This document shows, piece after piece, positions 6,901 to 20,596 of a DNA stretch of 33,782 bases (position 1 is its first letter; every line of letters begins with the position of its first letter). This DNA is from Oscillospiraceae bacterium (GTDB taxonomy: Bacteria; Bacillota; Clostridia; Oscillospirales; Oscillospiraceae). The position numbers and the translations under genes were made by a program. The DNA is taken from assembly GCA_017552325.1 (NCBI GenBank), contig JAFZQE010000016.1, forward strand, positions 1 through 33,782, read 5' to 3'. The notes beneath the pieces are model-generated. The model was not told the DNA's origin and did not search any database. It saw nothing but the letters and a program-made list of their open reading frames with translations.

Positions 6901-8106
6901 TCAGTAGAGGATCGCCTGCTTCGGGCAGACGCCGGCGCAGGTGCCGCAGCCGATGCAGAGGTCCTCGTCCAGCTTCCAGGTCTTCGCCGCACGGTCGACC
7001 TCCAGCGCCCCGGCGGGGCACTTCTTCGCGCAGATCGTGCAGTAGACGCACTTGGCCGGATCCTGGACCGGGCGGCCGTCGTCGCGCGGCTTGGGCGGCT
7101 CGGCGGGCTTGCAGGGCTCGATGACCTCGGGCTCGGCGGCCTTCGGCGCCTCCGCGGGGGCGGGCGCCGGGGCGGGGGCGGGAGCCGCGGGGGCGTCCTG
7201 CACGCCGCAGACGATGGCCTTCTTCGGGCAGACGCTCTCGCAGGTGCCACAGGCGACGCAGGAGTCCTCGTCCAGCTTCCAGGTCTTCGCCGCGCGGTCT
7301 ACCTCCAGCGCGCCGGCCGGGCACTTCTTCGCGCAGATCGTGCAGTAGACGCACTTGTCGGGATCCTGGACGGGCTTGCCGTCCTCGCGGCCGACCACCG
7401 CGCTCTTCGCCGCAGGCGCGGCGGCAGGGGCGGGAGCCGGAGCGGCGGGCGCCTCGACGGCGACGGGCTCGTCGCCGGGCATCAGGATGGCCTTCTTCGG
7501 GCAGGCGTCGGCACAGGTGCCGCAGCCCACGCACTCGTCCTCGTTGAGCGTCCAGGTCTTGGCGGCGCGGTCCACCGTCAGCGCCCCGGCGGGGCACTTC
7601 TTGGCGCAGAGCGTGCAGTAGACGCACTTCGAGGGCACCTGGACGGGCTTGCCGTCGTCCCTGGGCTTGATGACCGCGCCGGCGGCGGGGGCCGGGGCCG
7701 CGGGAGCGGCGGGCTTGGCCGCGGGAGCCTTCTTCACCGGGGTCTTTTTGATGACGACGCCGGTGACCATCAGGTCCTCTTCCTTCGTGGCGACCATGTG
7801 GTAGTCGCGCGTGAACTCGATGGCGCCGTGGCCGCAGAAGTCCATGCAGGTCGCGCAGAAGGTGCAGGAGCCGAGATAGAAGGTGCGGGTGATGCGCTCG
7901 CCGTCCTCGGTCGGCTCGCTGACGTGCGTGATCGCGTTGCCGGAGCAGACGCGCTCGCACATGTTGCAGTTGATGCACTTGTCCGGGTGGAAGACGATGC
8001 GGCCGCGGTAGTTGGGCGCAGCTTCGCTCGGGCGGACGGGATACATGTCGCAGCTGCTCTTCTTGAAGATCGAGCTCAGCGCTTCTTTAACAAAGGGGAA
8101 ATCCAT
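6901..8106 (-). CDS. mbhN: Hydrogenase polyferredoxin: MbhN/NuoI-like domain plus three 2[4Fe-4S] modules
   Basis: This 401-residue iron-sulfur protein is predicted to carry electrons from ferredoxin to the hydrogenase. The N-terminal domain (about 1-115) is the MbhN/NuoI subunit with two cluster motifs: CINCNMCERVC (44-54) and CTFCATCMDFC (81-91). Three near-identical ferredoxin modules follow at about 148-209, 240-300 and 340-401. Each has CVYCTxCAKKCP and a second CxxCGTCxxxCP. Ala/Pro-rich linkers (runs of PAPAPA) separate them. In total there are motifs for eight [4Fe-4S] clusters, against two in ordinary MbhN of 120-180 residues. Its ATG overlaps the mbhJ stop by one base (TAATG). It is the last gene of the operon. 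One extra cysteine (C332) lies in a linker. Confidence 0.92.
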   Translation of the reverse strand: MDFPFVKEALSSIFKKSSCDMYPVRPSEAAPNYRGRIVFHPDKCINCNMCERVCSGNAITHVSEPTEDGERITRTFYLGSCTFCATCMDFCGHGAIEFTRDYHMVATKEEDLMVTGVVIKKTPVKKAPAAKPAAPAAPAPAAGAVIKPRDDGKPVQVPSKCVYCTLCAKKCPAGALTVDRAAKTWTLNEDECVGCGTCADACPKKAILMPGDEPVAVEAPAAPAPAPAAAPAAKSAVVGREDGKPVQDPDKCVYCTICAKKCPAGALEVDRAAKTWKLDEDSCVACGTCESVCPKKAIVCGVQDAPAAPAPAPAPAPAEAPKAAEPEVIEPCKPAEPPKPRDDGRPVQDPAKCVYCTICAKKCPAGALEVDRAAKTWKLDEDLCIGCGTCAGVCPKQAILY

Positions 8107-8549
8107 TAGTTCATCGCCCTCCTCTTCTCACGCAGGATCTCGATGGCCTTGACCAGGCCGTCGATGACGGCCTCGGGCTTCGGCGCGCAGCCGGCGACGT
8201 CCACATCGACGTGGACATACTTGGACAGCGGGCCGGCGATGGAATAGCTGCCGCGGAAGACGTTGCCGCTCTGGGGGCAGGAGCCCATCGTCACGATGCA
8301 GCGCGGTTCCGGCACCTGCTCGATCGTGCGCAGCACGCGGGGCAGAGACTGCACGGTGACCGGCCCGGTCACGACGACGATGTCGGCGTGGCGGGGCGTG
8401 CCGGACAGCTTGACGCCGAGGCGCTCGGCGTCGTAGCGCGGCGTGAGGACGGACACGAGCTCGATGTCGCAGCCGTTGCAGGAGCCGGCGTTGATGTGGA
8501 ACAGCCACGGAGATTTCGCGGTGCTCTCTTCGATCAGTTTCTTAAACAT
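8106..8549 (-). CDS. mbhJ: [NiFe]-hydrogenase small subunit, MbhJ/EchC/NuoB type
   Basis: This 147-residue protein holds the proximal [4Fe-4S] cluster next to the NiFe site and pairs with the large subunit encoded in the same operon. Ligands are visible at C24 and C27 (GSCNGCD), C91 (MGSCPQSG) and C121 (AGCAPKP), the complete NuoB/MbhJ set. The lack of extra cluster domains is typical of group 4 energy-converting hydrogenases. The start ATG follows GAGGAGGG, and the mbhM stop lies inside this ribosome-binding region, 12 bases upstream. It sits between the membrane subunit mbhM and the polyferredoxin, an order that puts the electron path genes together at the operon end. Confidence 0.94.
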   Translation of the reverse strand: MFKKLIEESTAKSPWLFHINAGSCNGCDIELVSVLTPRYDAERLGVKLSGTPRHADIVVVTGPVTVQSLPRVLRTIEQVPEPRCIVTMGSCPQSGNVFRGSYSIAGPLSKYVHVDVDVAGCAPKPEAVIDGLVKAIEILREKRRAMN

Positions 8550-8561
8550 AAGCGTCCCTCC

Positions 8562-9605
8562 TCATTTTCCAAACCAGGCCAGCACCAGACTGATCAGTGC
8601 GAGCCCGGTGACCACGGTCCAGTAATACTTGAAGAGCTGTTCGATCTTCAGGCGGGCCGTGACGGCGTGGACGAAGGAAATGGTGACCAGGGTGAGCACG
8701 ATGCACAGCAGCACCATGATCAGCACCTGCAGCAGCAGCGCGATCGCCGAGGCCAGGCCGCCGGTCAGGCCGATGGCGGCGATGAGCCTGACGACGCCGC
8801 TTCCGATGCCGCCCAGGAACAGGGCGACGAAGAGGCTGGTCAGGGTCAGCATCTTGACGGCGTGGCTGAGCTTGAAGATGCCGAGCGGCGCGCCGCTGTA
8901 CTCGGCCAGCAGGCCCTCGCAGATCTCGGTCTCGGCCTCGGCCGCGTCGAAGGGATGGTTGCCGGTCTCGCCGGGGATGATCAGCAGCATCGCCAGCGCC
9001 GCCGGGATCATGCTCGCGCGGCAGATCAGGCTGCCGTGGGCGGCCTGGTAATCCGCGATGCCGCTCATGGAGAAGACCAGACCCGTGCCCATCGCGTTGC
9101 CGACCGTCTTCGCCACGCTCAGCAGCACCAGCACCAGCGGCAGCTCGACGGCCAGCACCGTGACCATCTCACGGCTCAGGCCGATGCCCGCATAGGGCGA
9201 GCCGCTGGCCGCGCCGCCCATCATCACCGACACCGCCGGGATCAGCAGCAGGTAGAGGATGACGATGATGTCCGCCACCTCGGGCAGGTTGCGGAAGACA
9301 CGGAAGTTGAACACCGGGATGAAGAGCTGGATGACCACCAGGGCCGAGAGCCCCAGCAGCGGCGCCATCATGAAGGTGGTGCGGGAGGCGGCGGCGGGAA
9401 CGATGGTCTCCTTGCCGCAGAGCTTGAAGAAATCGTAGAAGGGCTGCAGGATCGGGGGACCGACACGCTTCTGCATGCGGGCCACCGCCTTGCGGTCGAT
9501 GCCGCAGAGCAGCAGGCCGATCACGAAGCAGAAGAGGAAGCCGGGGAAGATGAGGATATAGCCCAGATACAGCAGGGCGGTCTGAAGAAATTCAAGAGAA
9601 AACAT
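8562..9605 (-). CDS. mbhM: Hydrogenase membrane anchor subunit, MbhM/EchB/NuoH type
   Basis: This 347-residue protein with about eight membrane helices anchors the hydrogenase module and couples electron transfer to ion movement. NuoH-family signatures are clear: the first cytosolic loop KRVGPPILQPFYDFFKLCGK (about 46-65) and the acidic loop NHPFDAAEAETEICEGLLAE, followed by YSG. These correspond to the quinone-cavity or ion-path elements of complex I. The longer open frame reaches back to 9674, but ATG 9605 has a textbook AAGGAGGTG seven bases before it and gives the usual N-terminus. It lies 14 bases after mbhH and 12 bases before mbhJ. Confidence 0.94.
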   Translation of the reverse strand: MFSLEFLQTALLYLGYILIFPGFLFCFVIGLLLCGIDRKAVARMQKRVGPPILQPFYDFFKLCGKETIVPAAASRTTFMMAPLLGLSALVVIQLFIPVFNFRVFRNLPEVADIIVILYLLLIPAVSVMMGGAASGSPYAGIGLSREMVTVLAVELPLVLVLLSVAKTVGNAMGTGLVFSMSGIADYQAAHGSLICRASMIPAALAMLLIIPGETGNHPFDAAEAETEICEGLLAEYSGAPLGIFKLSHAVKMLTLTSLFVALFLGGIGSGVVRLIAAIGLTGGLASAIALLLQVLIMVLLCIVLTLVTISFVHAVTARLKIEQLFKYYWTVVTGLALISLVLAWFGK

Positions 9606-9619
9606 TCTTCCCACCTCCT

Positions 9620-11524
9620 TTAAAGAACGATCTGGAGGAACACGATGGCCAGGGCCAGCGCGACCACCGCCCACAGGGCATAGTCGTTGACGATGCCGCT
9701 GTGCAGATCATGCATGAAGCTGAAGTAGTGCCGCCAGTTCTGCTTGAAGCCCCAGAAGAGGTCTCCGCCGCCGACCTGGGAGTACTCGCTCTTTTCGCCG
9801 CTGAAGAAGACGTCGTACTTCGGGGCCAGCTTCTCGCCGGAGGCGTTCTCGCTGACGCGGTCGTACTTGCCGAGCAGCGCGACGAAGGTGAGCGCGAGCA
9901 GCGCGATGCCGAGCAGGAGCAGCCAGTTGATCGGGTTCCAGGCGCCCACGGCCTCCGGCAGCGCCGTCTCCGCGGGAGCGACCGAGCCGCCCAGCGCGGA
10001 ATTGATGTAGCGCGCGGCGCTCTGGGCCGCGTGCGCGGCGGGAGCGGTGAGGTACTTGGTGACGAGGTTCGGCAGCAGGCCGGTCAGAATGCAGAGGACC
10101 GCGAACATGCCCATGCCCAGGCGCATGCCGAAGGGCACTTCCTTGACGTCCTTGTATTCCTCCGGGAGCTGGCCGAAGAAGACGGACTGGCTGACCTTGA
10201 CGAAGGATGCCAGGGTCAGGGTGCTGGTGACGAGCGCGACGATCGTGACGAGCAGATAGCCGATGTTGTTGGTGTCCACCGCCGCCTGGTAGGTGGCCTG
10301 GTAGATCATCCACTTGCTGGCGAAGCCGTTGAAGGGCGGGATGCCGCTGATGGAGGCCGCGCCGATCAGGAAGAGCACCGTCGTGTGCGGCATGCGCTTC
10401 GACAGGCCGCCCAGGCGGTTGAGATCCGTGGTGCCGGTCTCGTGCATGACGGCGCCGGCGGCAAGGAACAGCAGGCCCTTGAAGATCGTGTGGTTCATCG
10501 CGTGGTAGAGGCCGGCGGTGATGCCCAGCAGACTAGACAGACCCACGGCGGTCAGCACGTAGCCGATCTGGGAGATGCTGTGGAAGGCCAGCAGACGCTT
10601 GAAGTCATGCTGCGCCAGCGCCATCGTGACGCAGACGAACATGCTCACGCTGCCGACGATGACGAGCATCCAGCGGATCGTGGCCTGATCCATGCTCTGG
10701 AACAGGAAGTAGGCCAGACGGATGATGCCGTAGATACCGGACTTGGTGAGGACGCCGGAGATCAGCACCGAGATGGAGGCGGGAGCAGCGCCGTGCGCGT
10801 CCGCCGCCAGGGGGTGGAAGGGCACCAGGAAGGCCTTGGTGCTGAAGCCCACGAACAGGAGCGCGAAGGCCACGCGGGTCGCCCCGTTGAAGTTGCCGGG
10901 GATCAGGCTGCTCAGCTGCGCGAAGTTCAGGGTGTGGGCCTGCGCGTAGAGCATGATCGTGCCGGCCAGGATGCAGGTGGAGCCGATGGAGCCGACCACG
11001 AGGTACTTGAAGGCCGCCTCCAGCGCGCCGCGCGCGGTGTTGCGGAAGGCCGTCAGCGCGACCGCGGCGAAGGTAAGGATCTCCACCATGATGAACATGT
11101 TGAAGAGGTCGCCCGAGAGGACGAGGCCCATCACGCCGCCGGCGAGCATCAGGAACAGGGTGTAGTACTGGGGGATGTTGTCGTCGTGCTCCATGTATTT
11201 GATGGAGTAGACGCAGGCCACGAAGACCGCCGTGGCGATCAGCAGGCCGAAGAAGAGGCTCAGCGCGTCGACCTCGAGCGCGATGCCGAAGGCGAAGCCG
11301 CCGGCAACGGAGCGGTTGCCCAGCCAGTAGGTGATGATCTCACCGCCCAGCATCACGCGGGGGATCAGCAGGCACAGCAGCGCCAGCGAGCCGCCGACGC
11401 TCAGCAGGGCCAGGCAGTGGCGCGCGATGCGGTTTTTCCCGAAGAGGACGATCAGGAAGGCGCCGAGGAACAGCAGCATGATCGCGTAGATCGGGTAGTG
11501 CTGATAAGAAAGAACGTTCATCAT
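9620..11524 (-). CDS. mbhH: Antiporter-like ion-pump subunit, MbhH/MrpD type, with long C-terminal extension
   Basis: This 634-residue, highly hydrophobic protein belongs to the NuoL/M/N-MrpD family and has about 14-16 helices. The helix with the key Glu (FIMVEILTFAAVALTAF) and the Lys/His helices (FSTKAFLVPFHPLAADAHGAAP, here split by GAAP, and LTKSGIYGIIRL) are present. MbhH/MrpD proteins are about 500 residues. Here roughly 120 residues follow the usual end, including a membrane helix (INWLLLLGIALLALTFVALL), a loop and a last helix (ALWAVVALALAIVFLQIVL). No separate mbhI gene exists in the cluster, so the tail may be a fused MbhI; this is inference. The start ATG overlaps the mbhG stop (ATGA). 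Confidence 0.92.
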   Translation of the reverse strand: MMNVLSYQHYPIYAIMLLFLGAFLIVLFGKNRIARHCLALLSVGGSLALLCLLIPRVMLGGEIITYWLGNRSVAGGFAFGIALEVDALSLFFGLLIATAVFVACVYSIKYMEHDDNIPQYYTLFLMLAGGVMGLVLSGDLFNMFIMVEILTFAAVALTAFRNTARGALEAAFKYLVVGSIGSTCILAGTIMLYAQAHTLNFAQLSSLIPGNFNGATRVAFALLFVGFSTKAFLVPFHPLAADAHGAAPASISVLISGVLTKSGIYGIIRLAYFLFQSMDQATIRWMLVIVGSVSMFVCVTMALAQHDFKRLLAFHSISQIGYVLTAVGLSSLLGITAGLYHAMNHTIFKGLLFLAAGAVMHETGTTDLNRLGGLSKRMPHTTVLFLIGAASISGIPPFNGFASKWMIYQATYQAAVDTNNIGYLLVTIVALVTSTLTLASFVKVSQSVFFGQLPEEYKDVKEVPFGMRLGMGMFAVLCILTGLLPNLVTKYLTAPAAHAAQSAARYINSALGGSVAPAETALPEAVGAWNPINWLLLLGIALLALTFVALLGKYDRVSENASGEKLAPKYDVFFSGEKSEYSQVGGGDLFWGFKQNWRHYFSFMHDLHSGIVNDYALWAVVALALAIVFLQIVL

Positions 11525-11871
11525 CCTCTCAGCCTCCTTACCTCACGGGTGTCCATCGTCCCGTACTGCTCGTAGATCTTCATCACGAGCGCGAGGGACA
11601 TCGCGGTGACGCAGGCGCCGATAACGATGCTCGTCAGCGTGAGCGCCTGGGGGATGGGGTCGACGAAGAAGCTCGAGGGATTGAGCTCGCTGATCGTGAA
11701 GATCGGGGCCGTGCCGCCGGGGTTGAAGCCGATCGAGACGATCAGCAGGTTCACGCCGTAGTCCATAATGCTCAGGCCGATGACCGTCTTGACGAGGTTA
11801 TACTTGGTGACGATCGTATACAGGCCGAGAACGATCAGGAAGAAGGCCGCTATGTAGTTCATCAGAATCAT
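11521..11871 (-). CDS. mbhG: MrpC/NuoK-like subunit (MbhG)
   Basis: This 116-residue, three-helix membrane protein of the NuoK/MnhC family is part of the ion-translocating arm. Typical features are the N-terminal helix (YIAAFFLIVLGLYTIVTKY), GLSIMDYGVNLLIVSIGF, and DPIPQALTLTSIVIGACVTA, the signature of MrpC. A frame extending to 11901 exists, but ATG 11871 has GGGAGG seven bases upstream and lies one base after the stop of mbhF. The stop overlaps the ATG of mbhH by four bases, which suggests translational coupling. Confidence 0.93.
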   Translation of the reverse strand: MILMNYIAAFFLIVLGLYTIVTKYNLVKTVIGLSIMDYGVNLLIVSIGFNPGGTAPIFTISELNPSSFFVDPIPQALTLTSIVIGACVTAMSLALVMKIYEQYGTMDTREVRRLRG

Positions 11872-11872
11872 G

Positions 11873-12334
11873 TCAGTCCCTCCCTTTCTCTTCGAGATCA
11901 CGCAGGACGCCGAGCATCAGCAGCGCCACCGAGCTGATGCCGGTGAAGACCTTGACGCCGACGGTCACGTTCATCCAGAAGATCGTGCCGGAGCTGTACA
12001 GGTCGCCGATGCTGCCCTGGGTGTAGAGGATGTTCTGGCAGAACATCGCGCCGGCAGCCGCGCCCATGAAGGCCAGCGCCACGTAGCACACGGAGGCCAG
12101 GCCCTCGCCGTGATGCACCAGGCCGAAGCTGATGGTGCGCGAGGCCGCCTCGTAGCCGTAGGCCAGAGCCAGAAGCGCGATCACCGCGGCGACCAGGACG
12201 CCGCCCTGGAAGCCGCCGCCGGGAGACAGATGCCCGTGCAGGATGATGTAGCAGATGTACACCATCGTCAGAGGCAGGATCATGTCAACCCCGCAGGGCT
12301 GAATGATGTTCTTCACGGTGATGCCGTTTTTCAT
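11873..12334 (-). CDS. mbhF: MrpB-domain membrane subunit (MbhF)
   Basis: This 153-residue protein with four helices belongs to the MnhB/MrpB family. The hallmark HGHLSPGGGFQGGVLVAA lies at about residues 33-50. A middle loop ends with the helices that frame the channel between the B and C subunits. Its ATG overlaps the mbhE stop (ATGA), and it ends one base before the mbhG start. In Mrp antiporters and Mbh hydrogenases this subunit is part of the proposed sodium path, so Na+ or H+ coupling is expected. Which ion is used cannot be decided from this reading. Confidence 0.93.
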   Translation of the reverse strand: MKNGITVKNIIQPCGVDMILPLTMVYICYIILHGHLSPGGGFQGGVLVAAVIALLALAYGYEAASRTISFGLVHHGEGLASVCYVALAFMGAAAGAMFCQNILYTQGSIGDLYSSGTIFWMNVTVGVKVFTGISSVALLMLGVLRDLEEKGRD

Positions 12335-12693
12335 TCCTGCTCATCCTCCTTCTTTTCTTCCTTCTTGTTGAAGAGGATGACCATCGTGCCGGCCACGGCC
12401 GTGATCAGGATGAAGGCCTCGCCCATGGTGTCGTAGCCACGGAAGTCGAAGACGATGCTGGTCACGTCGTTGACGGCATGGGTGTTTTTCAGGTTCTGCT
12501 GGACGATGACGGCCGCAGCGCCGTCCGCTTCCGCGTTCTCATCGGCGGCTTCGGGATCGTTCCAGAGCTCGGTGACGCTGAGATCCGCCTTGCTGCCGTC
12601 GTAGGTGCGGTCCATCTTGGCCAGCTTCATGCTGGCGAAAACGCCGGCGAAGAGGATGAGACCGAGGCAGACCCAAGTCAGAAATTTCTTCAC
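12331..12693 (-). CDS. mbhE: MbhE-like membrane subunit
   Basis: This 120-residue protein has two helices. The N-terminal anchor is at residues 5-22, an acidic external loop covers about 25-75, and a second helix lies near 90-110. The signature VNDVTSIVFDFRGYDTMGEA matches MbhE and the C-terminal end of MrpA. The acidic loop (NDPEAADENAEADGAAA) is longer than I expect for the family. Translation starts with GTG 12693, overlapping the mbhD stop (GTGA), and the gene ends in a Lys/Glu-rich tail. It stands in the usual D-E-F order of Mbh clusters. Confidence 0.88.
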   Translation of the reverse strand: MKKFLTWVCLGLILFAGVFASMKLAKMDRTYDGSKADLSVTELWNDPEAADENAEADGAAAVIVQQNLKNTHAVNDVTSIVFDFRGYDTMGEAFILITAVAGTMVILFNKKEEKKEDEQE

Positions 12694-12944
12694 TGGTCTC
12701 CGCCTCCTTTCAGCTTGCGCAGCGTAACGATGAAGATCATCGGCGCAAGCGCGGCGCCGACGGCCGCCTCGGAGATCGCGACGTCGGGCGCGTGCAGCAG
12801 CAGGAATTCAGCCGCGGCAAAGAGGCCCGTCACGCTCAGCGCGATCACGGAGGACAGCAGCTTTTCCGATACGGAGGCCAAGATCGCGGACACGACCAGG
12901 CCGATCAGAATCAGCGCGTTCAGTATGACTATCCAGGTACTCAT
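12690..12944 (-). CDS. mbhD: MbhD-like membrane subunit (DUF4040 type)
   Basis: This 84-residue protein with three helices corresponds to a C-terminal piece of MrpA that is separate in Mbh clusters. The conserved stretch APDVAISEAAVGAALAPMIF (about 52-71) is diagnostic and contains acidic residues thought to be on the ion path. The start ATG overlaps the mbhC stop (ATGA), and the stop overlaps the mbhE start. Confidence 0.9.
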   Translation of the reverse strand: MSTWIVILNALILIGLVVSAILASVSEKLLSSVIALSVTGLFAAAEFLLLHAPDVAISEAAVGAALAPMIFIVTLRKLKGGGDQ

Positions 12945-13294
12945 TCGCTGTCCCTCCCCAGATCATCTGTTTCCATGGGCTTGTCGGGGCGAATGCCCGC
13001 CTTGTACGCGCCCTTGGCGATCGCGTGCGCGCCGACCGGGCTCGTCACCAGGATCAGCAGGCCGATCACGACGATCTTCACGGCGGCGCCGGCCATCGGC
13101 GTTTCCGCGACGAAGAGCGCGTGGATCAGGCCGCCGAGCGTGACGCCGACCACACCGAGGGTCGACACGCAGGTGCTCGCCTGCATGCGGCAGAAGGTAT
13201 CGGGCATGCGGAGGATGCCGATCACGCCGACCAGAGCGAAGAAGGCGCCGACGGCGATCAGGACGTCACTGACTATCTTCAGCAGCATCGACAT
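12941..13294 (-). CDS. mbhC: MrpG/MnhG-like subunit (MbhC)
   Basis: This 117-residue, three-helix membrane protein of the MnhG family has the typical ILRMPDTFCRMQASTCVSTL (about 27-46) and a polar C-terminal tail. AAGGAGGG lies just before ATG 13294. The gene starts 29 bases inside the end of mbhB, an unusually long overlap for this operon, where four-base overlaps are the rule. Confidence 0.92.
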   Translation of the reverse strand: MSMLLKIVSDVLIAVGAFFALVGVIGILRMPDTFCRMQASTCVSTLGVVGVTLGGLIHALFVAETPMAGAAVKIVVIGLLILVTSPVGAHAIAKGAYKAGIRPDKPMETDDLGRDSE

Positions 13295-13562
13295 GCTTCT
13301 CCCTCCTTCCCTTCTCCAGGAACCGGCCGACCAGCATGGTATCGACGATACCGAGCATGGCGCCGATGATGGCGATATCCAGGTAAATGCCTCTTCCGCT
13401 GTAGAGAGCGAAGAGGATCATCGCGCAGCAGATCAGCGTATCCGCCGCGTCGGCGGCGACCATGCGGTCGGCGCCCGTGGGGCCCTTGACCAGGCGGATC
13501 AGAGCCACGGCGGCCAGCGCTCCGAAGAGCACGGCAAAAATGATCAGATCCGTATTGCTCAT
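13266..13562 (-). CDS. mbhB: MrpF/MnhF-like subunit (MbhB)
   Basis: This 98-residue, three-helix membrane protein of the MnhF family contains RLVKGPTGADRMVAADA (about 23-39), the family signature. It starts at ATG 13562, which overlaps the mbhA stop (ATGA) and follows AGGAGG by eight bases. The longer open frame back to 13874 is a shadow in the mbhA region. The charged tail overlaps the start of mbhC. Confidence 0.92.
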   Translation of the reverse strand: MSNTDLIIFAVLFGALAAVALIRLVKGPTGADRMVAADAADTLICCAMILFALYSGRGIYLDIAIIGAMLGIVDTMLVGRFLEKGRREKHVDAAEDSQ

Positions 13563-14077
13563 TGCCAGAACCTCCTGATCCATTTTTCCATCCGGCCCTT
13601 GATGGCCTCGCCGGCCTCGGCGCCGTCGGACTCGGCCTCGATCCAGTGCACGTAGTACTGCGCCTGGCCATCCTCCTCGGCGATCTCCATCGTGATGGTG
13701 CCGGGGGTCAGGGTGATGGAGTTGGCCAGGGCCGCGCGGCCGTAGTCGCTCTGCAGCTCTGACGGGATTTTGACGATGCCGGGCCTGACGTTTTTGCAGC
13801 CGCCGAGCACGAGCTTCGCCATGTTCACATTGGCCTTGATCAGCTCGCCCGGGAAGATGAAGAGCCAGTAGCACAGGCCCGTGAAGAACTTCGCGGGATT
13901 GGCGAGCCAGAACGCTTTTTCATGGATGAAGAAGCGCGCGGAGAACAGGGCGGCCGCCAGGCTCACCACGGCGCCGGCGATCAGCTCCTGCGGCTTAACC
14001 GACCAGGTCAGCAGCAGCCAGAACGCATAGCACACGATGAACGTGGCGATGACGGCCGAAACTTTGGTCTTTCGCAA
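13559..14077 (-). CDS. mbhA: MrpE/MnhE-like subunit (MbhA)
   Basis: This 172-residue protein has two or three N-terminal helices and a cytoplasmic alpha/beta domain of the MnhE family. Motifs seen are ELIAGAVVSLAAALFSARFF and, in the soluble part, ALANSITLTPGTITMEIAEE (about 116-135), the hallmark of this subunit. It ends in an unusually long acidic/basic tail. The start codon appears to be TTG (14077), with AAAAGGAG about ten bases before it. No in-frame ATG fits the N-terminus. It begins 22 bases after hypA, the largest gap within the operon. Confidence 0.9.
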   Translation of the reverse strand: MRKTKVSAVIATFIVCYAFWLLLTWSVKPQELIAGAVVSLAAALFSARFFIHEKAFWLANPAKFFTGLCYWLFIFPGELIKANVNMAKLVLGGCKNVRPGIVKIPSELQSDYGRAALANSITLTPGTITMEIAEEDGQAQYYVHWIEAESDGAEAGEAIKGRMEKWIRRFWQ

Positions 14078-14099: not shown

Positions 14100-14441
14100 T
14101 TATTCGACTTTCAGATTTTCCACATAGAATTCCCGCCCCTGCGTCATGCGCAGAGCCGTGGAGCGGCAGTCGGGACAGCAGGCGTTCTTCCGGTCGGCCG
14201 GGCCTTCATAGCCGCAGTCGAGGCAGCGGAAGCGCGCCGGCAGCGTCTCCATCACGAGGGCAGCGCCCTCGGCGGGCGTGCCTCCGGCGGCGATCGGGAA
14301 GAACTCGCGCAGGCACTCGGGTACCAGCCCGGAGAACTCGCCCATTTTCAGGCGGATCTCCAGAACGCGCGCGAAGCCCTCTTCCTTTGCCGCCTGCTCC
14401 ACGATCGCGATGATGTTGCGGGCGATCGACAGCTCGTGCAT
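14100..14441 (-). CDS. hypA: Hydrogenase nickel-incorporation protein HypA
   Basis: This 113-residue metallochaperone delivers nickel to the large subunit. The N-terminal MHELSIA carries the invariant Ni-binding His2 and Glu3. The zinc site is C73-X2-C76 and C89-X2-C92 (with C88 as an extra Cys). The ATG overlaps the stop of mbhL (ATGA), so HypA is made together with the subunit that it matures. This placement, between the catalytic subunit and the antiporter genes, is odd because the other hyp genes form a separate unit upstream. Confidence 0.96.
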   Translation of the reverse strand: MHELSIARNIIAIVEQAAKEEGFARVLEIRLKMGEFSGLVPECLREFFPIAAGGTPAEGAALVMETLPARFRCLDCGYEGPADRKNACCPDCRSTALRMTQGREFYVENLKVE

Positions 14442-15523
14442 CAGCGGTCGAGACAGCTGAAGCAGGGGTCGATGCTGGCGATGATGAGGCCGGCGTCCGC
14501 CACGGTGTTGCCGTGCAGCATGTGCGGCACGGTCGGCGTGTTCTTGTACGAGGGCACGTGCACGCTGATGCGGGCGTTGTTGAAGCCGCCGTTGCCGACG
14601 ACCATGTGGCTGAGCTGGCCGCGGGGCGCTTCGTGCATCTTCACGGCCATGCCTTCCTTGATCTTGACCAGCTTGTTGCCGAGGTTGATGGGCCCCTCGG
14701 GCAGGTTCTCCAGCGCCTGGCGGAGGATCTTGATGCTCTCGTAGCACTCGAGCGCGCGGACGACCACGCGGTCGAACACGTCGCCGTTCGGGGTGACGGG
14801 CACGTCGAACTCAAAATCGCCGTAGGCGGAATAGGGGGAGTCGCGGCGGACGTCGATGTCGACGCCGGAGGCTCTCGCGTGGGGGCCGACCGCGCCCATG
14901 CGCAGCGCGTCTTCTCTCGTCAGCACGCCGACGCCCTTGGTACGCATGGCGATGGTCTTGTCGTTGACGACGATGTCGACGATGCGGTCGAGCGGGGCCT
15001 TGAGCTTGTCCAGCGCAGCCAGCAGGTCGCGGCGCAGATCGTCGTCGATGTCGCGGCGGGAGCCGCCGATCGTGATCATCGCGTAGTTGACGCGGTTGCC
15101 GGTCATGCGCTCGAGCAGATCCATCACGAGCTCGCGCTCGTCCCAGATGTGCATGAACATGCTGTCGTGCCCGATGATGTGGCAGGCGATGCCGAACCAC
15201 AGGAAATGGGAGTGCAGGCGCTCGAGCTCGGCGGTGATGACGCGGATGTAGTCGCCGCGCTTCGGCACCTGGATGCCGTTGATGGCCTCCACGGCCATCG
15301 CGTACGTGAAGGCGTGCGAGTGCGAGCAGATGCCGCAGACGCGCTCCACCAGCACGAGGGTCTGGATGGCGTTGCGCTCGGTGGCAAGCTTCTCAATGCC
15401 GCGGTGGTTGTAGCCTACGAAGACCTCCGCGTCCTTGATGACTTCGCCTTCGGTGATGAGCCTGGCGTGGACCGGCTCCTCCAGGGAGGGATGGTACGGT
15501 CCGATGGGAACGATATAACTCAT
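14441..15523 (-). CDS. mbhL: [NiFe]-hydrogenase large (catalytic) subunit, group 4, MbhL/EchE type
   Basis: This 360-residue catalytic subunit reduces protons to H2. Both metal-binding motifs are intact: RVCGICSHSH with C63 and C66, and DPCFSC with C354 and C357. It is therefore a true hydrogenase and not a NuoD or Mbx homologue that has lost the site. The protein ends three residues after the last cysteine (CLDR), so there is no C-terminal peptide for a maturation protease to remove. MHIWDERELVMDLLERMTGN and the nearby RVNYAMITIGGSRRD are typical of group 4 enzymes. It starts one base after mbhK and overlaps hypA by one base. Confidence 0.97.
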   Translation of the reverse strand: MSYIVPIGPYHPSLEEPVHARLITEGEVIKDAEVFVGYNHRGIEKLATERNAIQTLVLVERVCGICSHSHAFTYAMAVEAINGIQVPKRGDYIRVITAELERLHSHFLWFGIACHIIGHDSMFMHIWDERELVMDLLERMTGNRVNYAMITIGGSRRDIDDDLRRDLLAALDKLKAPLDRIVDIVVNDKTIAMRTKGVGVLTREDALRMGAVGPHARASGVDIDVRRDSPYSAYGDFEFDVPVTPNGDVFDRVVVRALECYESIKILRQALENLPEGPINLGNKLVKIKEGMAVKMHEAPRGQLSHMVVGNGGFNNARISVHVPSYKNTPTVPHMLHGNTVADAGLIIASIDPCFSCLDR

Positions 15524-15524
15524 C

Positions 15525-15926
15525 TCACTCCTCCTCCTTGACTTTCTTCATGTTGTCCACCAGTTCGCTCAGAGGCGTGACCATGATCTGGCCCCTGCCC
15601 TGCGCTTCCAGCATGTCCTCCGGCAAGAACAGCCGCTTGGACATGTCGAGTCCCTCAAACTCGATGCCGAAGATCTCGTTGATCTCACGCTCCGGCCAGC
15701 TGGCCGCCGTGTCGTAGATCTCGCTGATCGAAGGCACCTTCGTCTCTCCGACGAGCAGATACCTTTCGATGGCGGGAGGCACGGAGTAGTCCCAGCTGAC
15801 CACCGGCTGTCCGTCTTTGTTCAGAAAGCCGTGGATCATGACGAGATAACGTCCGGCCTTTTTCATGCGCTCGGCCAGAGGAAGGACCTGGTCCCTGGTG
15901 ATTTGCGTTACCTTGTTCTCCTGCAT
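15525..15926 (-). CDS. mbhK: NuoC-like hydrogenase subunit (MbhK)
   Basis: This 133-residue soluble protein of the complex I 30-kDa (NuoC) family has the signature WPEREINEIFGIEFEGLDMS, followed by KRLFLPED. It forms the peripheral arm with MbhL and MbhJ. A GTG at 15935 would add three residues, but ATG 15926 has GAGGTG six bases before it and is preferred. It is the first gene of the structural operon. The 161-base gap upstream (15927-16087) shows a small hairpin (15974-15979 with 15986-15991) and a repeat, but no clear promoter. Transcription may therefore continue from the hyp genes. Confidence 0.9.
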   Translation of the reverse strand: MQENKVTQITRDQVLPLAERMKKAGRYLVMIHGFLNKDGQPVVSWDYSVPPAIERYLLVGETKVPSISEIYDTAASWPEREINEIFGIEFEGLDMSKRLFLPEDMLEAQGRGQIMVTPLSELVDNMKKVKEEE

Positions 15927-16003
15927 TCCTTTCACCTCTCTATTGTCATTGGTTTTCTTGCTATTTATCGACAGCGCTCTCTCGGGAGCGCGGATCGACC
16001 GTG

Positions 16004-16087: not shown

Positions 16088-17086
16088 TCAGCAGATTCTC
16101 GGCAGCTGCGCGCCGCTGAGCTTCTGCAGAATGCGCCGGCCGCCGAGCGCCGTGCGCAGCGTCACCTTGCCGGGATAGGCCCCGGTCACATGACCGATGA
16201 GGGCGGCGTTTTCGCCCTCGGGGCAGCTTCTCATCGCGGTGAGCACGGTCTCCGCGTCCTCCGGAGCGGCGACACAGAGGAGCTTGCCCTCGTTGGCGCA
16301 GTAGAGCGGGTCGAGGCCCAGCAGCTCGCAGGCCGCCTTCACCTCGCCGCGCACCGGCAGCGCCTCTTCCTCCAGCTCGATGCCGAGCGGCGTGTTCTCC
16401 ACAAACTCGCACAGCGTCGTGGCCGCGCCGCCCCGCGTCGGGTCGCGCAGCACGCGCACCGCCGCGCCGCTCGAGAGGATCTTATCCGCCATGCCGTTCA
16501 GGGCCGCACAGTCGGATCTCAGTTCCCCCTGCAGCATGCCGCTGCGCGCGAGCATCACGGCCGTGCCGTGGTCGCCCAGCGTGCCGGAGCAGAGCACCGC
16601 GTCGCCGGGGCGGATCGCCGCCGGGCTGAGACCGGGGTATTTCAGAAAGCCGATGCCGGCGGTGTTGATGTAGAGCTTGTCGCCGCGGCCGCGCTCGACG
16701 ACCTTCGTGTCGCCGGTGACGACCTGCACGCCGGCCTGTTGGGCCGCTTTTTTCATGGAATCCAGCACGCGCTCCAGATCGGCGAGGGGAAAGCCCTCCT
16801 CGATGATCAGCGCGCAGCTGAGATACTGCGGCACGCCGCCGCACATCGCGACGTCGTTGACCGTGCCGCAGACCGCGAGCTTGCCGATGTCGCCGCCCGG
16901 GAAGAAGATCGGATCGACGACAAAGCTGTCGGTCGAGAAGACCAGCTCTTCCGCCCCGGGGATCACGGCGCCGTCGCCCAAGGCGCGCAGCGCGGGATTG
17001 TCCAGCGCGGGGAGGATGCTGTTTTCGATCAGACGCGAGGTTTTTTTGCCCCCGCTGCCGTAGTCCAAAGTAATGATGTCGTCCAT
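16088..17086 (-). CDS. hypE: Hydrogenase maturation protein HypE
   Basis: This 332-residue enzyme of the PurM/ThiL fold converts the carbamoyl group placed on its C-terminal cysteine into thiocyanate, the source of the CN ligands. The start ITLDYGSGGKKTSRLI, the ATP-site motifs FSTDSFVVDPIFFPGGDIG (about 50-68), CGTVNDVAMCGG and VVTGDTKVV, and the C-terminal PRIC with its terminal Cys are all present. It starts one base after the hypD stop and is the last gene of the hypFCDE group. It is followed by a repeat and then the hydrogenase operon. Confidence 0.97.
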   Translation of the reverse strand: MDDIITLDYGSGGKKTSRLIENSILPALDNPALRALGDGAVIPGAEELVFSTDSFVVDPIFFPGGDIGKLAVCGTVNDVAMCGGVPQYLSCALIIEEGFPLADLERVLDSMKKAAQQAGVQVVTGDTKVVERGRGDKLYINTAGIGFLKYPGLSPAAIRPGDAVLCSGTLGDHGTAVMLARSGMLQGELRSDCAALNGMADKILSSGAAVRVLRDPTRGGAATTLCEFVENTPLGIELEEEALPVRGEVKAACELLGLDPLYCANEGKLLCVAAPEDAETVLTAMRSCPEGENAALIGHVTGAYPGKVTLRTALGGRRILQKLSGAQLPRIC

Positions 17087-17087
17087 G

Positions 17088-18155
17088 TCACACCGTCTGA
17101 TAGTTATATGCCGCCGCGCAGGCGCCCTCCGAGGACACCATGCAGGGGCCGACCGGATCCTCCGGCGTGCAGCGCCGCCAGAACATCGGGCAGTCCGCCG
17201 GGCGGCAGCGGCCGCAGATCACGTCGCCGCAGCGGCAGGGCGTGGGCGCCTCGGCCTCCGGCGGCTCGACGCCGAACTTCTTCTCCGCGTCCCAGGCGGC
17301 GAATTCCTCCCGCCAGCCGAGGCCGCTTGCCTCGATCATGCCGAGGCCGCGCCAGAGCTCGCGCCGGGGCGCGAAGCACTGCGCGATCACGCGCTGCGCC
17401 AAAGGGTTCCCCTCGGCGCGCACGGCGCGCGGATAGGCGTTTTCCAGCTTCGGTTCTCCCTCGGCGAGCTGCCGCAGGATCAGGTACAGCGCATGGAGGA
17501 TCTCCTCTGGCTCAAAGCCGCCCACCACGGCGGGCAGGCCGTACTCCTCCGGCAGGAAGCGGAAGGCCTCCGCGCCGATGACCGTGGCCACATGCCCGGG
17601 GCAGAGGAAGCCCTGCACCGCAAAGTCCTCCTGCCGCAGCAGCGCCCGCAGCGCGGGCTCCACGGTTTTCAGCATCGACCAGACCGAAAAGTTCTTCACG
17701 CCGCGCTCCCGCGCCGTCAGCACGGCGGCCGCGGTGCCGGGGGCGGTGGTCTCGAAGCCGACGCCGAGGAAGACGATCTCCTTGTCCGGGCTGCGCTGCG
17801 CAAGCTCCACCGCGTCGACCGGCGAGTAGACCAGCTCGACACGCGCGCCCAGGGCGCGGCGGCGCTGCAGACTGTCCCCCGGGCGGCTGCCCGGGACGCG
17901 CAGCATGTCGCCGTAGCTGGCGAGGATGACGCCCGGCTCTCCGCTCAGCTCGAGCAGCCGGTCGATGACGGCCGCCGGGGTCACGCAGACGGGGCAGCCG
18001 GGGCCGCTGAGGAGCTCGACGCCCTCCGGCAGCAGCGACTTGATGCCCGCGCGGGCGATCGACATCGTGTGCGTGCCGCAGACCTCCATGAGCTTGGCGC
18101 GCAGCGGCGGCAGGGCCCCTATCGCGTTCAGCCAGTACTCCGCCTCAGAGCGCAT
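17088..18155 (-). CDS. hypD: Hydrogenase maturation protein HypD
   Basis: This 355-residue [4Fe-4S] scaffold, with HypC, assembles the Fe(CN)2CO unit. Conserved motifs are EVCGTHTM, LSGPGCPVCVTP, FLGVGFETTAP, GFLCPGHV and a cysteine-rich tail (CRCGDVICGRCRPADCP, then CTPEDPVGPCMVSSEGAC). The longer frame begins at 18221, but ATG 18155 follows GGGAGGA by about eight bases and gives the usual N-terminus. It overlaps the end of hypC by 11 bases. The tail is richer in cysteines than I expect, with added CRCG and CGRC pairs. Confidence 0.97.
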   Translation of the reverse strand: MRSEAEYWLNAIGALPPLRAKLMEVCGTHTMSIARAGIKSLLPEGVELLSGPGCPVCVTPAAVIDRLLELSGEPGVILASYGDMLRVPGSRPGDSLQRRRALGARVELVYSPVDAVELAQRSPDKEIVFLGVGFETTAPGTAAAVLTARERGVKNFSVWSMLKTVEPALRALLRQEDFAVQGFLCPGHVATVIGAEAFRFLPEEYGLPAVVGGFEPEEILHALYLILRQLAEGEPKLENAYPRAVRAEGNPLAQRVIAQCFAPRRELWRGLGMIEASGLGWREEFAAWDAEKKFGVEPPEAEAPTPCRCGDVICGRCRPADCPMFWRRCTPEDPVGPCMVSSEGACAAAYNYQTV

Positions 18156-18363
18156 CGCGTAGTTCCTCCCAGGCCCCGATGTCCTCGAGGGCCTGCTCCT
18201 CCGGCAGCCGCTCAATGGCAAAGCCCGCGTGGACGATCACGTAATCGCCCGGCTTCGGGTCGTCGATGAAGTCGACCCGGACGCTGCGGCGCATGCCCAT
18301 CGACTCGGCAATGGCCTCGTTTCCCTTTATTTCAATCAGCTTGAGCGGAACCGCCAGACACAT
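18145..18363 (-). CDS. hypC: Hydrogenase maturation chaperone HypC
   Basis: This 72-residue small beta-barrel chaperone binds iron via its N-terminal cysteine (MCLAVPLKL, Cys2) and hands it from HypD to the large subunit. GDYVIVHAGFAIERL is also typical. The ATG lies 32 bases inside the hypF end and the stop lies inside hypD, so HypF, C and D are tightly coupled. AGGAAAGGG lies upstream of ATG. Confidence 0.97.
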   Translation of the reverse strand: MCLAVPLKLIEIKGNEAIAESMGMRRSVRVDFIDDPKPGDYVIVHAGFAIERLPEEQALEDIGAWEELRDAL

Positions 18364-20596
18364 GTTCCCTTTCCTCCAACAGAGCCTCTGCGATCATCAG
18401 CTGGCCGAGGGACAGGCCCTCGTCGTTGGGCGAGACTCTCCGATGCCGCAGGACGCGGAAGCCCTCTTTTTCCAGGGCGGCCGGCAGCGCGCGCATCAAA
18501 ATCATATTCTGGAACGTGCCGCCCGAGAGCGCCACGTCGTTGATCTTCGTTTTCTCCCGCGCCGCGCGGCAGGTCTCGGCCGCCATCGCGACGAGGGTGT
18601 TGTGGAAGCGCCCCGCGATCTCGCCTGTCGGCAGGCCGCGGTCCCGGTCTTCGGCCAGCGCGCGGATCGTCGGCCGCCAGTCAAAGCGCAGGGGGCTGCC
18701 CTCCAGCGCGAAGGGGTAGCTTGCTTCCGTCTCCGTCGCAGCGGCCTCCAGCAGCACCGCCCCCTGGCCCTCGTAGCTGGCGAGGGTCTTGATGCCGAGG
18801 ATCGCGGCCACGCCGTCGAACAGGCGGCCCATGCCGCTCGAGAGCGGGCAGTTGAGCCCGGCGGCCAGCATCTTCTCATAGAGCGCCGCGCCAGGGACCG
18901 CTGAAGCGTCCAGCCCGGCCTCGCGCAGCAGCGCGAAGGCCACGCGGTCGAGCTCCTTCGTCGCCCGGTCGCCGCCGATCAGCGGGATCGGCCGGATCGA
19001 GCCGAAGCGCTCATAGCCCCGGAGATCCCCGATCAGGCATTCGCCGCCCCAGGTCGTGCCGTCGTCGCCGTAGCCCGTGCCGTCCCAGACGAGGCCGATC
19101 GCCGGCCCCTCCAGGCCGTTGTCGGCAAGGCACGCGGCCAAATGCGCGTGGTGGTGCTGCACAGCGATCACCGGCAGCTTTTCTCTCGCGCCGCGCTCCT
19201 GCGCATAAGCCGTGGAGAGGTAGTCGGGATGCTTATCGCAGACCAGCGCCGCAGGACGAATGTCAAACAGGCGCTCGAAGTGGCGGATCTGCGCTTCGTA
19301 GTGGGCGAAGGTCTCGGCGTTTTTCAGATCGCCGATGTGCTGCACGGCGAAGACGCTCTCCCCGCGCGAAAGGCAGAAGCTCGCCTTCTGCTCGGCCCCG
19401 CAGGCCAGGATCGGCCGCAGCGGCCGCCCCGTCTGCAGCGGGAAGGGCACGTAGCCCCGGCTGCGGCGGGCGAAATATTCCTTCCCGTCCAGGACCCAGC
19501 ACAGCGAGTCGTCGCAGCGGGTCTGGATCTCGCGGTCGTGCAGCAGGAAGCCGTCGGCGATGCCGTGCAGCTTCTCCAGCGCCTCGGCGTTTTTGAACAT
19601 GATCGGCGTGTCGGACAGATTCGCGCTCGTCATGACCAGCGCGTCGATGTCCTCGCCGAACAGCAGCACGTGCAGCGGCGTGTAGGGCAGCATCACGCCG
19701 AGAAAGCCGTTCTCGCTAAGATGCTCCAGCCCCGGCTCGCGCTTGCGGAGCAGCACGATCGGCTTGTGGAAGCTCTCGAGCACCGCGCGTTCCCCTTCGC
19801 TGACAACGCAGAGTTTCTCCGCGCAGGCCGTATTGCGGCACATGATGGCAAATGGTTTTTCGTCGCGCTGCTTGCGGCGGCGGAGCGTCCGCGCAATTGT
19901 CGGATCATCGCAGCGGCAGGCGAGGTGCATGCCGCCGAGGCCCTTGACCGCGACGATTTTCCCCTGCTTCAGCGCCTCGCGCGCCAGCCCGATCGCGTCG
20001 CCCGGGAGCTCCCGCCCTTCGGCGTCGAGATAAAAGACCCGCGGGCCGCAGACCGGGCAGCAGTCCGGCTGGGCGTGGTAGCGGCGGTTTTCGATGTCGT
20101 GGTACTCGCGGTCGCAGTCCGGGCACATCGGGAAGCCGCTCATCGAGGTCAGCGCTCGGTCGTAGGGCAGATCCTTGATGATCGTGAAGCGCGGACCGCA
20201 GTTGGTGCAGTTGATGAAGGGGTAGCGGTAACGCCGGTCGGCCGGGTCGAGCAGCTCGCGCCGGCAGTCCTCGCAGAGGCCTACGTCCGGCGAGACGAGG
20301 GTGTTGCGCAGCTCCTCGGTGCGGCTCTTTTGGATCTCAAAGCCCTGAAAATGCCGCAGCTCCGGGCTGAATTCGGTCTCGACGCGCTCGATCAGCGCGA
20401 GCTTCGGCGCGCGCAGCGGCACGTCCGCCACAAAGCGCTCCAGCTCCGGGCGCTCGCCCTCCAGCTCCAGCTCCACGCCGGAGGAGGTGTTTTTGATATA
20501 GCCGGAGAGCCGGTATTCGCGCACCAGCTTGTGGATGAAGGGGCGAAAGCCGACGCCCTGGACGATCCCGTGTATCTTGACAGTCGCTCTCTCCAC
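18332..20596 (-). CDS. hypF: Carbamoyltransferase HypF
   Basis: This 754-residue enzyme makes carbamoyl-adenylate from carbamoyl phosphate and transfers it to HypE. The domains in order are: acylphosphatase (GIVQGVGFRPF, about 9-19), two zinc fingers (CEDC...CTNC and CPDC...CPVC, about 108-185), a YrdC-like domain (GKIVAVKGLGGMHLAC, about 215-230) and a C-terminal Kae1-like domain (VIAVQHHHAHLAACL and VALSGGTFQNMIL). It begins with GTG 20596. The site AAGGAC is rather distant, so translation may be modest. It is the first gene of the maturation operon, after a good promoter (20664-20692). Confidence 0.97.
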   Translation of the reverse strand: MERATVKIHGIVQGVGFRPFIHKLVREYRLSGYIKNTSSGVELELEGERPELERFVADVPLRAPKLALIERVETEFSPELRHFQGFEIQKSRTEELRNTLVSPDVGLCEDCRRELLDPADRRYRYPFINCTNCGPRFTIIKDLPYDRALTSMSGFPMCPDCDREYHDIENRRYHAQPDCCPVCGPRVFYLDAEGRELPGDAIGLAREALKQGKIVAVKGLGGMHLACRCDDPTIARTLRRRKQRDEKPFAIMCRNTACAEKLCVVSEGERAVLESFHKPIVLLRKREPGLEHLSENGFLGVMLPYTPLHVLLFGEDIDALVMTSANLSDTPIMFKNAEALEKLHGIADGFLLHDREIQTRCDDSLCWVLDGKEYFARRSRGYVPFPLQTGRPLRPILACGAEQKASFCLSRGESVFAVQHIGDLKNAETFAHYEAQIRHFERLFDIRPAALVCDKHPDYLSTAYAQERGAREKLPVIAVQHHHAHLAACLADNGLEGPAIGLVWDGTGYGDDGTTWGGECLIGDLRGYERFGSIRPIPLIGGDRATKELDRVAFALLREAGLDASAVPGAALYEKMLAAGLNCPLSSGMGRLFDGVAAILGIKTLASYEGQGAVLLEAAATETEASYPFALEGSPLRFDWRPTIRALAEDRDRGLPTGEIAGRFHNTLVAMAAETCRAAREKTKINDVALSGGTFQNMILMRALPAALEKEGFRVLRHRRVSPNDEGLSLGQLMIAEALLEEREHVSGGSAQAD

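Follow-up and report, generated by a model that had tools for sequence, protein, structure and literature searches.

Why should the ferredoxin-like subunit of a membrane-bound hydrogenase carry three further dicluster modules behind its usual domain, and what would they do for the enzyme? The question is raised by the mbhN gene on a stretch of 33,782 nucleotides, called the window here, which makes up one entire contig of a MAG (83 contigs, 2.09 Mb, 75% complete, 4.3% contaminated). The genus consists of rumen and gut clostridial MAGs, with Candidatus Limivicinus among its members, a name that the NCBI taxonomy places in Clostridia, Eubacteriales incertae sedis.

The mbhN gene and its operon

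The mbhN gene (6901..8106, minus strand) has an ATG start codon, and its product of 401 residues contains the motif CxxCxxCxxxC eight times. Residues 1–116 (7759..8106) form an N-domain of the MbhN/NuoI type, with [4Fe-4S] motifs starting at residues 44 and 81, that matches MbhN of P. furiosus (6cfw_N, E 7e-14). Behind it lie three dicluster modules of 62 residues each, at residues 147–208 (7483..7668; motifs at 161 and 192), 238–299 (7210..7395; motifs at 252 and 283), and 339–400 (6907..7092; motifs at 353 and 384). They are joined by linkers of 30 residues (117–146; 7669..7758), 29 residues (209–237; 7396..7482), and 39 residues (300–338; 7093..7209), of which Ala and Pro make up 57%, 66%, and 62%, respectively. 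From the motifs, the protein is predicted to hold eight [4Fe-4S] clusters. Pfam Fer4 and dicluster models match repeatedly along the product, and the coding DNA of the three modules forms 181-nt direct repeats, with 88% and 81% identity to the reference copy. The NCBIfam whole-protein scores (NuoI, PRK08348) are sums over four stretches of the product and were therefore set aside as evidence of membership.

The AlphaFold2 model of the protein (38 rows) has a mean pLDDT of 76.1 and a pTM of 0.37; as a single chain with so low a pTM, it carries no information on docking. Ten-residue blocks within the modules reach a pLDDT of 84–91. Values below 50 are found at residues 1–3 and 16–21 of the N-domain and in the linkers, where they cover residues 134–141, 221–235, and 304–333, so that the first linker is of low confidence only in part and large parts of the second and third are predicted to be disordered. 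When Foldseek is run with the model, FwdF polyferredoxin chains head the list, though their TM stays under 0.21, as one would expect of beads placed arbitrarily, and NuoI/HycF-type chains come next. The best PDB matches of the sequence, summed over the repeats, are polyferredoxins, followed by RnfB, HdrA, and HydB chains. With eight motifs the product exceeds the six per chain that mark a polyferredoxin, but it is neither a separate chain nor tightly packed, being an MbhN fusion with linkers of 29–39 residues that are disordered to a considerable extent in the model.

mbhN is the last gene of a minus-strand operon. The operon begins with hypF (18332..20596; PF22521, PF17788, PF07503), hypD (17088..18221; PF01924), and a hypE-like maturation gene with AIRS domains, named by gene order (16088..17086; PF00586, PF02769). 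These are followed by the NuoC-like mbhK (15525..15935; PF00329), the [NiFe] large subunit gene mbhL (14441..15523; PF00346, PF00374), whose product has both Cys motifs, RVCGIC and DPCFSC, and hypA (14100..14441; PF01155). Next are genes like MrpE (13559..14077; PF01899), MrpF (13266..13568, the C-terminal part of an ORF at 13266–13874; PF04066), and MnhG (12941..13294; PF03334), then mbhD (12690..12944; PF13244), an MbhE-like gene (12331..12693; PF20501 at 26.6 bits, slightly below the cut-off of 27), and genes like MnhB/MbhF (11873..12334; PF04039) and MnhC/MbhG (11521..11901; PF00420). The antiporter-like mbhH (9620..11524; PF00361), the NuoH-like mbhM (ORF 8562..9674, likely start 9605; PF00146), and the gene of the NuoB-like small subunit, mbhJ (8106..8549; PF01058), lead to mbhN. 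The C-terminal 120 residues encoded by mbhH are MbhI-like (6cfw_I, E 0.0014), which suggests an MbhH–MbhI fusion.

This gene order is kept in 80 of 80 named loci to the limit of their DNA, 59 of them spanning hypD to mbhN, and both nickel-binding Cys motifs are present in all 63 near-full MbhL proteins of these loci. The operon has the marks of an Mbh-type group 4 enzyme: a large subunit of the NuoD type that carries both of the CxxC nickel motifs, Mrp-type antiporter subunits, and a two-motif MbhN/NuoI-like subunit. Given the nickel motifs and the conserved order, the operon seems to encode an Mbh-type [NiFe] hydrogenase rather than a hydrogenase-like relative that lacks the nickel ligands. 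As an Mrp-type group 4 hydrogenase, the enzyme presumably conserves energy.

Distribution, conservation and history of the modules

A match to MbhN (E ≤1e-20) is present in 93 of the 102 genomes of the genus. The 96 mbhN loci of these genomes were read, and in 89 of them the modules can be counted: 67 genes have one module, 12 have two (one of these damaged), eight have three, and two have none (G001 and G059). The damaged case, in G119, has lost one motif of its second module. Since all but two of the 89 countable genes, which come from separate genomes, have at least one module, chance and assembly artefact are rejected as the source of the fusion. The fused MbhN is real, conserved, and genus-wide. 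The initial annotation had described a two-cluster MbhN/NuoI-like domain joined to three 2[4Fe-4S] modules by flexible Ala/Pro linkers, and the reading frame, the eight motifs, the Pfam matches, and the recurrence across the genus all bear this out. The domain search of MbhN homologues that it proposed shows further that the arrangement is not unique to the window and comes with zero to three modules.

Seven of the 96 loci could not be counted, two being broken (G002, G040) and five ending at a contig end before the stop codon; the tail module of the contig-cut G139 gene was found on a separate contig. The countable G102 gene lies at a contig end without its first codons. Split or interrupted genes were seen at L026 (G002), L065 (G040), L088 with L262 (G139), L114 with L117 (G102), and L022 (G006), probably because the assembly collapsed or the contig broke at the repeats or close to them. 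Draft MAGs may understate the number of modules.

Beyond the genus, MbhN was searched for in 391 genomes of the class and 398 of the phylum, both sets including the window's own genome (16 and 116 with a match), and in two further classes of 43 and 20 genomes (21 and 5 with a match) that partly overlap the phylum set. Because the shortest fused gene of the genus that has a start encodes 206 residues, frames of at least 205 residues were taken as able to hold a fusion. All 17 class loci outside the window were read, as were 15 of the 17 such frames of the phylum set outside the window's genome (those of G733 and G709, 563 and 627 residues, being left out) and all four and two frames of the two other classes. 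In none of the frames read beyond the genus were added modules of this type present. The nearest MbhN proteins of other genera have two motifs, and that of P. furiosus (6cfw_N) has 139 residues, in agreement with the earlier claim that a normal MbhN consists of the first part alone.

The closest relatives of the module are found among EchF-type proteins. In a module-consensus search of 196 class genomes, the best matches outside the window's own gene are short proteins of this type. A profile of 114 modules scores EchF-type proteins highest, at 50.5–69 bits, NuoI-like proteins from 50.4 bits downward, and one small 2[4Fe-4S] ferredoxin of the window's genome at 37 bits; the panel is not neutral, as the EchF-type loci were fetched with a module query, and the NuoI-like 50.4 bits nearly tie with the weakest of them. 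On this same panel, an origin of the module from the organism's own small ferredoxin is disfavoured. The EchF identity was checked by neighbours at three loci (L236, L238, L249), all preceded by a [NiFe] large subunit, with L236 also followed by hypA and hypF. The modules and EchF have a like dicluster core, with a stretch resembling CPxxAIxVxRxxKxW and CPKK. In contrast, EchF at the three loci checked is a single dicluster in a stand-alone gene beside the Ech large subunit, with no MbhN tether, and the modules form the 3′ part of the mbhN gene. An Ech-derived origin within the genus was not seen when its 102 genomes were queried with EchF, the matches being mainly mbhN genes, with three (G007 contig 115, G123 contig 39, G006 contig 75) left unread.

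Two further occurrences of similar domains were observed. A 265-residue frame in G002 (contig 110, L261) has an EchF-like dicluster (VDRESKSW) near its N-terminus and more ferredoxin motifs; it is a different protein, and such modules are therefore also present on another redox protein. In other clostridia, a similar dicluster domain is N-terminal in oxidoreductase-like frames of about 610 residues (L124–L129, L132).

When the 89 countable genes are searched with a profile built from one-module genes, with cysteines not required, 115 module domains are detected (one match of 8 residues and 2.3 bits was dropped). Both four-Cys motifs are kept in 114 of the 115, always spaced by 31. Among the 114 modules selected by Cys motif, twelve other residues are invariant: R3, D5, G6, P8, Y17, A22, V32, D33, R34, W39, G50, and I61. 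In the eight three-module genes, pooled dN/dS is 0.17 for module 1, 0.23 for module 2, and 0.18 for module 3; in eleven two-module genes, it is 0.29 and 0.27 for the first and second; the median pairwise value for one-module genes is 0.23 (1651 pairs, dS 0.05–1.5). These values of 0.17–0.29 indicate purifying selection on every module position.

The linkers are variable in length. Overall they consist of 34% Ala, 20% Pro, 15% Lys, and 10% Glu. First linkers span 25–144 residues, with a median of 38 (87 genes), the longest belonging to a clade with an insert of about 10 residues in the N-domain that is counted in the linker length; later linkers span 27–60 residues (n = 27). Four one-module genes (L051, L053, L056, L057) have both a very long first linker and this insert. 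In its abundance of Ala, Val, Lys, Glu, and Asp, that of L053 resembles a single long helix.

Trees of the Mbh subunits, made by a quick method with SH-aLRT support (1 and 3 rows with too few columns left out), require at least nine changes of module number and at least four of the state of two or more modules. Both module-less genes nest within one-module clades, which suggests that they arose by loss. Two modules are near-identical in some genes (up to 98% DNA identity, in G019), as if a tandem duplication or a conversion had taken place there recently. Unfused MbhN proteins of other genera already bear a short, cluster-free tail rich in Ala, Lys, and Pro (L120, L270–L272), and so the arm may predate the addition of the modules.

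Tethered modules as proposed electron-input heads

The modules are best read as tethered heads, which would capture ferredoxin in its reduced form and pass its electrons to MbhN, with extra modules aiding capture and docking, and a probability of roughly 0.55 seems fair to this reading; confidence in the tethered mechanism is moderate. A neutral-to-basic module would bind acidic reduced ferredoxin and accept its electrons. Its arm would then let the loaded module swing across to the clusters of MbhN and hand the electrons over, for onward transfer in the direction of MbhJ and the [NiFe] site. Added modules would raise the rate of capture and allow several donors to dock simultaneously. They would also help Mbh against other users of reduced ferredoxin, such as Rnf. 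RnfB is encoded in the window's genome (L003; NF005503, 257 bits against a cut-off of 252), and Rnf and Mbh would therefore compete for one donor.

Electrons can tunnel over distances up to a limit of about 14 Å. Arms this long, of varying length and disordered to a considerable extent, are unlikely to conduct electrons by tunnelling, so that the modules would have to move. Charge, taken from letter counts that ignore clusters and surface patches, also bears on the mechanism. The modules have a mean net charge of +1.45 (range −1 to +5), and the EchF-type cores displayed have +2 to +7. One small 2[4Fe-4S] ferredoxin of the window's genome, the single ferredoxin compared, has −10; against this value the module seems better placed to accept electrons from an acidic ferredoxin than to imitate one. 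A counter-point to electrostatic capture is that the N-domain is itself negative (mean −4.2) though ferredoxin docks there in Mbh. The modules could also bind a partner other than ferredoxin. Since two of 89 genes have no module and one module is damaged, the tail is dispensable in some species.

A bolder extension is a "swinging ferredoxin" enzyme with zero to three tethered arms, their number tuned to the electron load and added where Mbh is the main or only hydrogenase because an [FeFe] enzyme is missing. The lipoyl arms of pyruvate dehydrogenase are the natural comparison. This extension is tentative, with the odds against it. [FeFe] hydrogenase (PF02906, E ≤1e-20) is present in both genomes with no module, in 50 of 66 with one, in 4 of 12 with two, and in 1 of 8 with three, and is thus rarer with two or more modules than with one (5/20 against 50/66; Fisher p 9e-5). 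As a phylogenetically independent signal the link is not upheld, with three independent pairs and a median p of 1 in the sign test. Independent gains are few and MAG gaps also confound the comparison, so the link is kept as a hint and not as evidence.

The initial annotation had offered a wire, a store of electrons, or the docking of several donors at once. The last is what the tethered-head reading favours. The store, in which the extra clusters would buffer electrons for two-electron H2 chemistry during bursts of reduced ferredoxin, is retained as a rival but is unlikely. Six extra clusters are predicted in the window's protein and modules are conserved at every position, as a store would have it, but most species have a single module (67 of 89 countable genes) and thus little storage capacity, and free ferredoxin would probably hold more.

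It is quite unlikely that the modules are specific docking arms, binding particular donor enzymes such as 2-oxoacid:ferredoxin oxidoreductase and bypassing free ferredoxin. The twelve invariant residues are compatible with a partner site, and a POR-like frame is present in the genome (L008, labelled from its sequence without a family search), but part of this invariance may be structural, as VDR..K.W is shared with EchF-type proteins, and no such donor is encoded among the annotated genes of the operon.

Neutral expansion, in which the repeats promote changes in copy number and extra copies contribute nothing, agrees with the repeated changes of module number and of the two-or-more state on the trees, with the near-identical modules within genes, and with the one damaged module among 115. 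It is nevertheless most improbable, for purifying selection acts at all positions and both motifs are kept in 114 of the 115 modules. Hardly credible is a fixed wire, a rigid stack whose cluster chain would connect the periphery with MbhN in the manner of compact polyferredoxins, since its structural echo, the FwdF chains at the top of the Foldseek matches, has TM below 0.21, and first linkers of 25–144 residues and later ones of 27–60 are unconserved in length, largely predicted to be disordered in linkers 2 and 3, and longer than electrons can tunnel.

Comparison with known systems and significance

P. furiosus Mbh is the obvious reference for the enzyme, with the same subunit types (NuoC/D/B/H/I-like and a Mrp-type antiporter) and an MbhN that matches the N-domain. 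The gene order of the P. furiosus mbh operon differs from that in the window. Unlike the window's protein, P. furiosus MbhN lacks tail modules, and the MbhI-like end of mbhH is a further difference. In the part of the source available, the P. furiosus enzyme is described with three [4Fe-4S] clusters in total, located in MbhN and MbhJ, and with MbhN as the ferredoxin docking site (PMC11228991).

Many clusters per chain are no novelty at group 4 hydrogenases. Among methanogen polyferredoxins, the accessible portion of one account lists EhaP, EhaQ, and EhbK, encoded in the eha and ehb units, with 6, 10, and 14 clusters, and MvhB and FwdF, encoded in other units, with 12 and 8 (PMC3087415). These resemble the window's protein in the number of [4Fe-4S] clusters per chain, and several are encoded with a hydrogenase; as described there, they are separate proteins, whereas the window's modules are fused to MbhN by long linkers and vary in copy number within a genus. 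CooF of the CO-dependent hydrogenase system is also termed a polyferredoxin in the text available (PMC5861303).

RnfB is the nearest functional parallel in layout. According to the part of the source at hand, it accepts electrons from cytoplasmic ferredoxins, has 2–7 clusters in its C-terminal domain, and relays electrons through a flexibly tethered domain (PMC12174285). It thus shares with the window's protein a place at the electron entry, a cluster number that varies, and a ferredoxin-like domain on a flexible tether. It differs in its complex and N-terminus, and identical modules linked by Ala and Pro are not among the features described in that part. The N-terminal membrane helix and one-cluster domain that distinguish RnfB are absent from the window's protein, whose N-terminus is the MbhN domain.

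The initial annotation knew of no described Mbh with this arrangement. That holds for the fusion itself, in that a literature search brought up no paper whose title or opening abstract lines report tandem modules on MbhN, a weak negative given that most subscription journals and preprints lay outside the coverage; it has to be narrowed in that polyferredoxin subunits of group 4 enzymes are already known from the excerpted account above (PMC3087415). The dicluster ferredoxin part and the presence of many clusters at a hydrogenase are thus known, and the covalent, flexible, copy-number-variable tether to MbhN appears to be new.

The genus offers a natural series of zero, one, two, and three modules on one enzyme in rumen and gut bacteria, and the effect of a tethered ferredoxin on H2 production and energy conservation is therefore directly testable. 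If the modules are indeed input heads, they would be a ready-made means of connecting redox enzymes to pools of ferredoxin. The modules are of interest, too, for the question of which bacteria feed H2 to rumen methanogens. Rumen hydrogenases are in part functionally unresolved, which the available text says of group 4g (PMC6776011); the window's Mbh is placed here in group 4 as a whole. The same contig carries a GH5-type cellulase gene at 356–1309 (PF00150), which fits a plant-fibre gut habitat.
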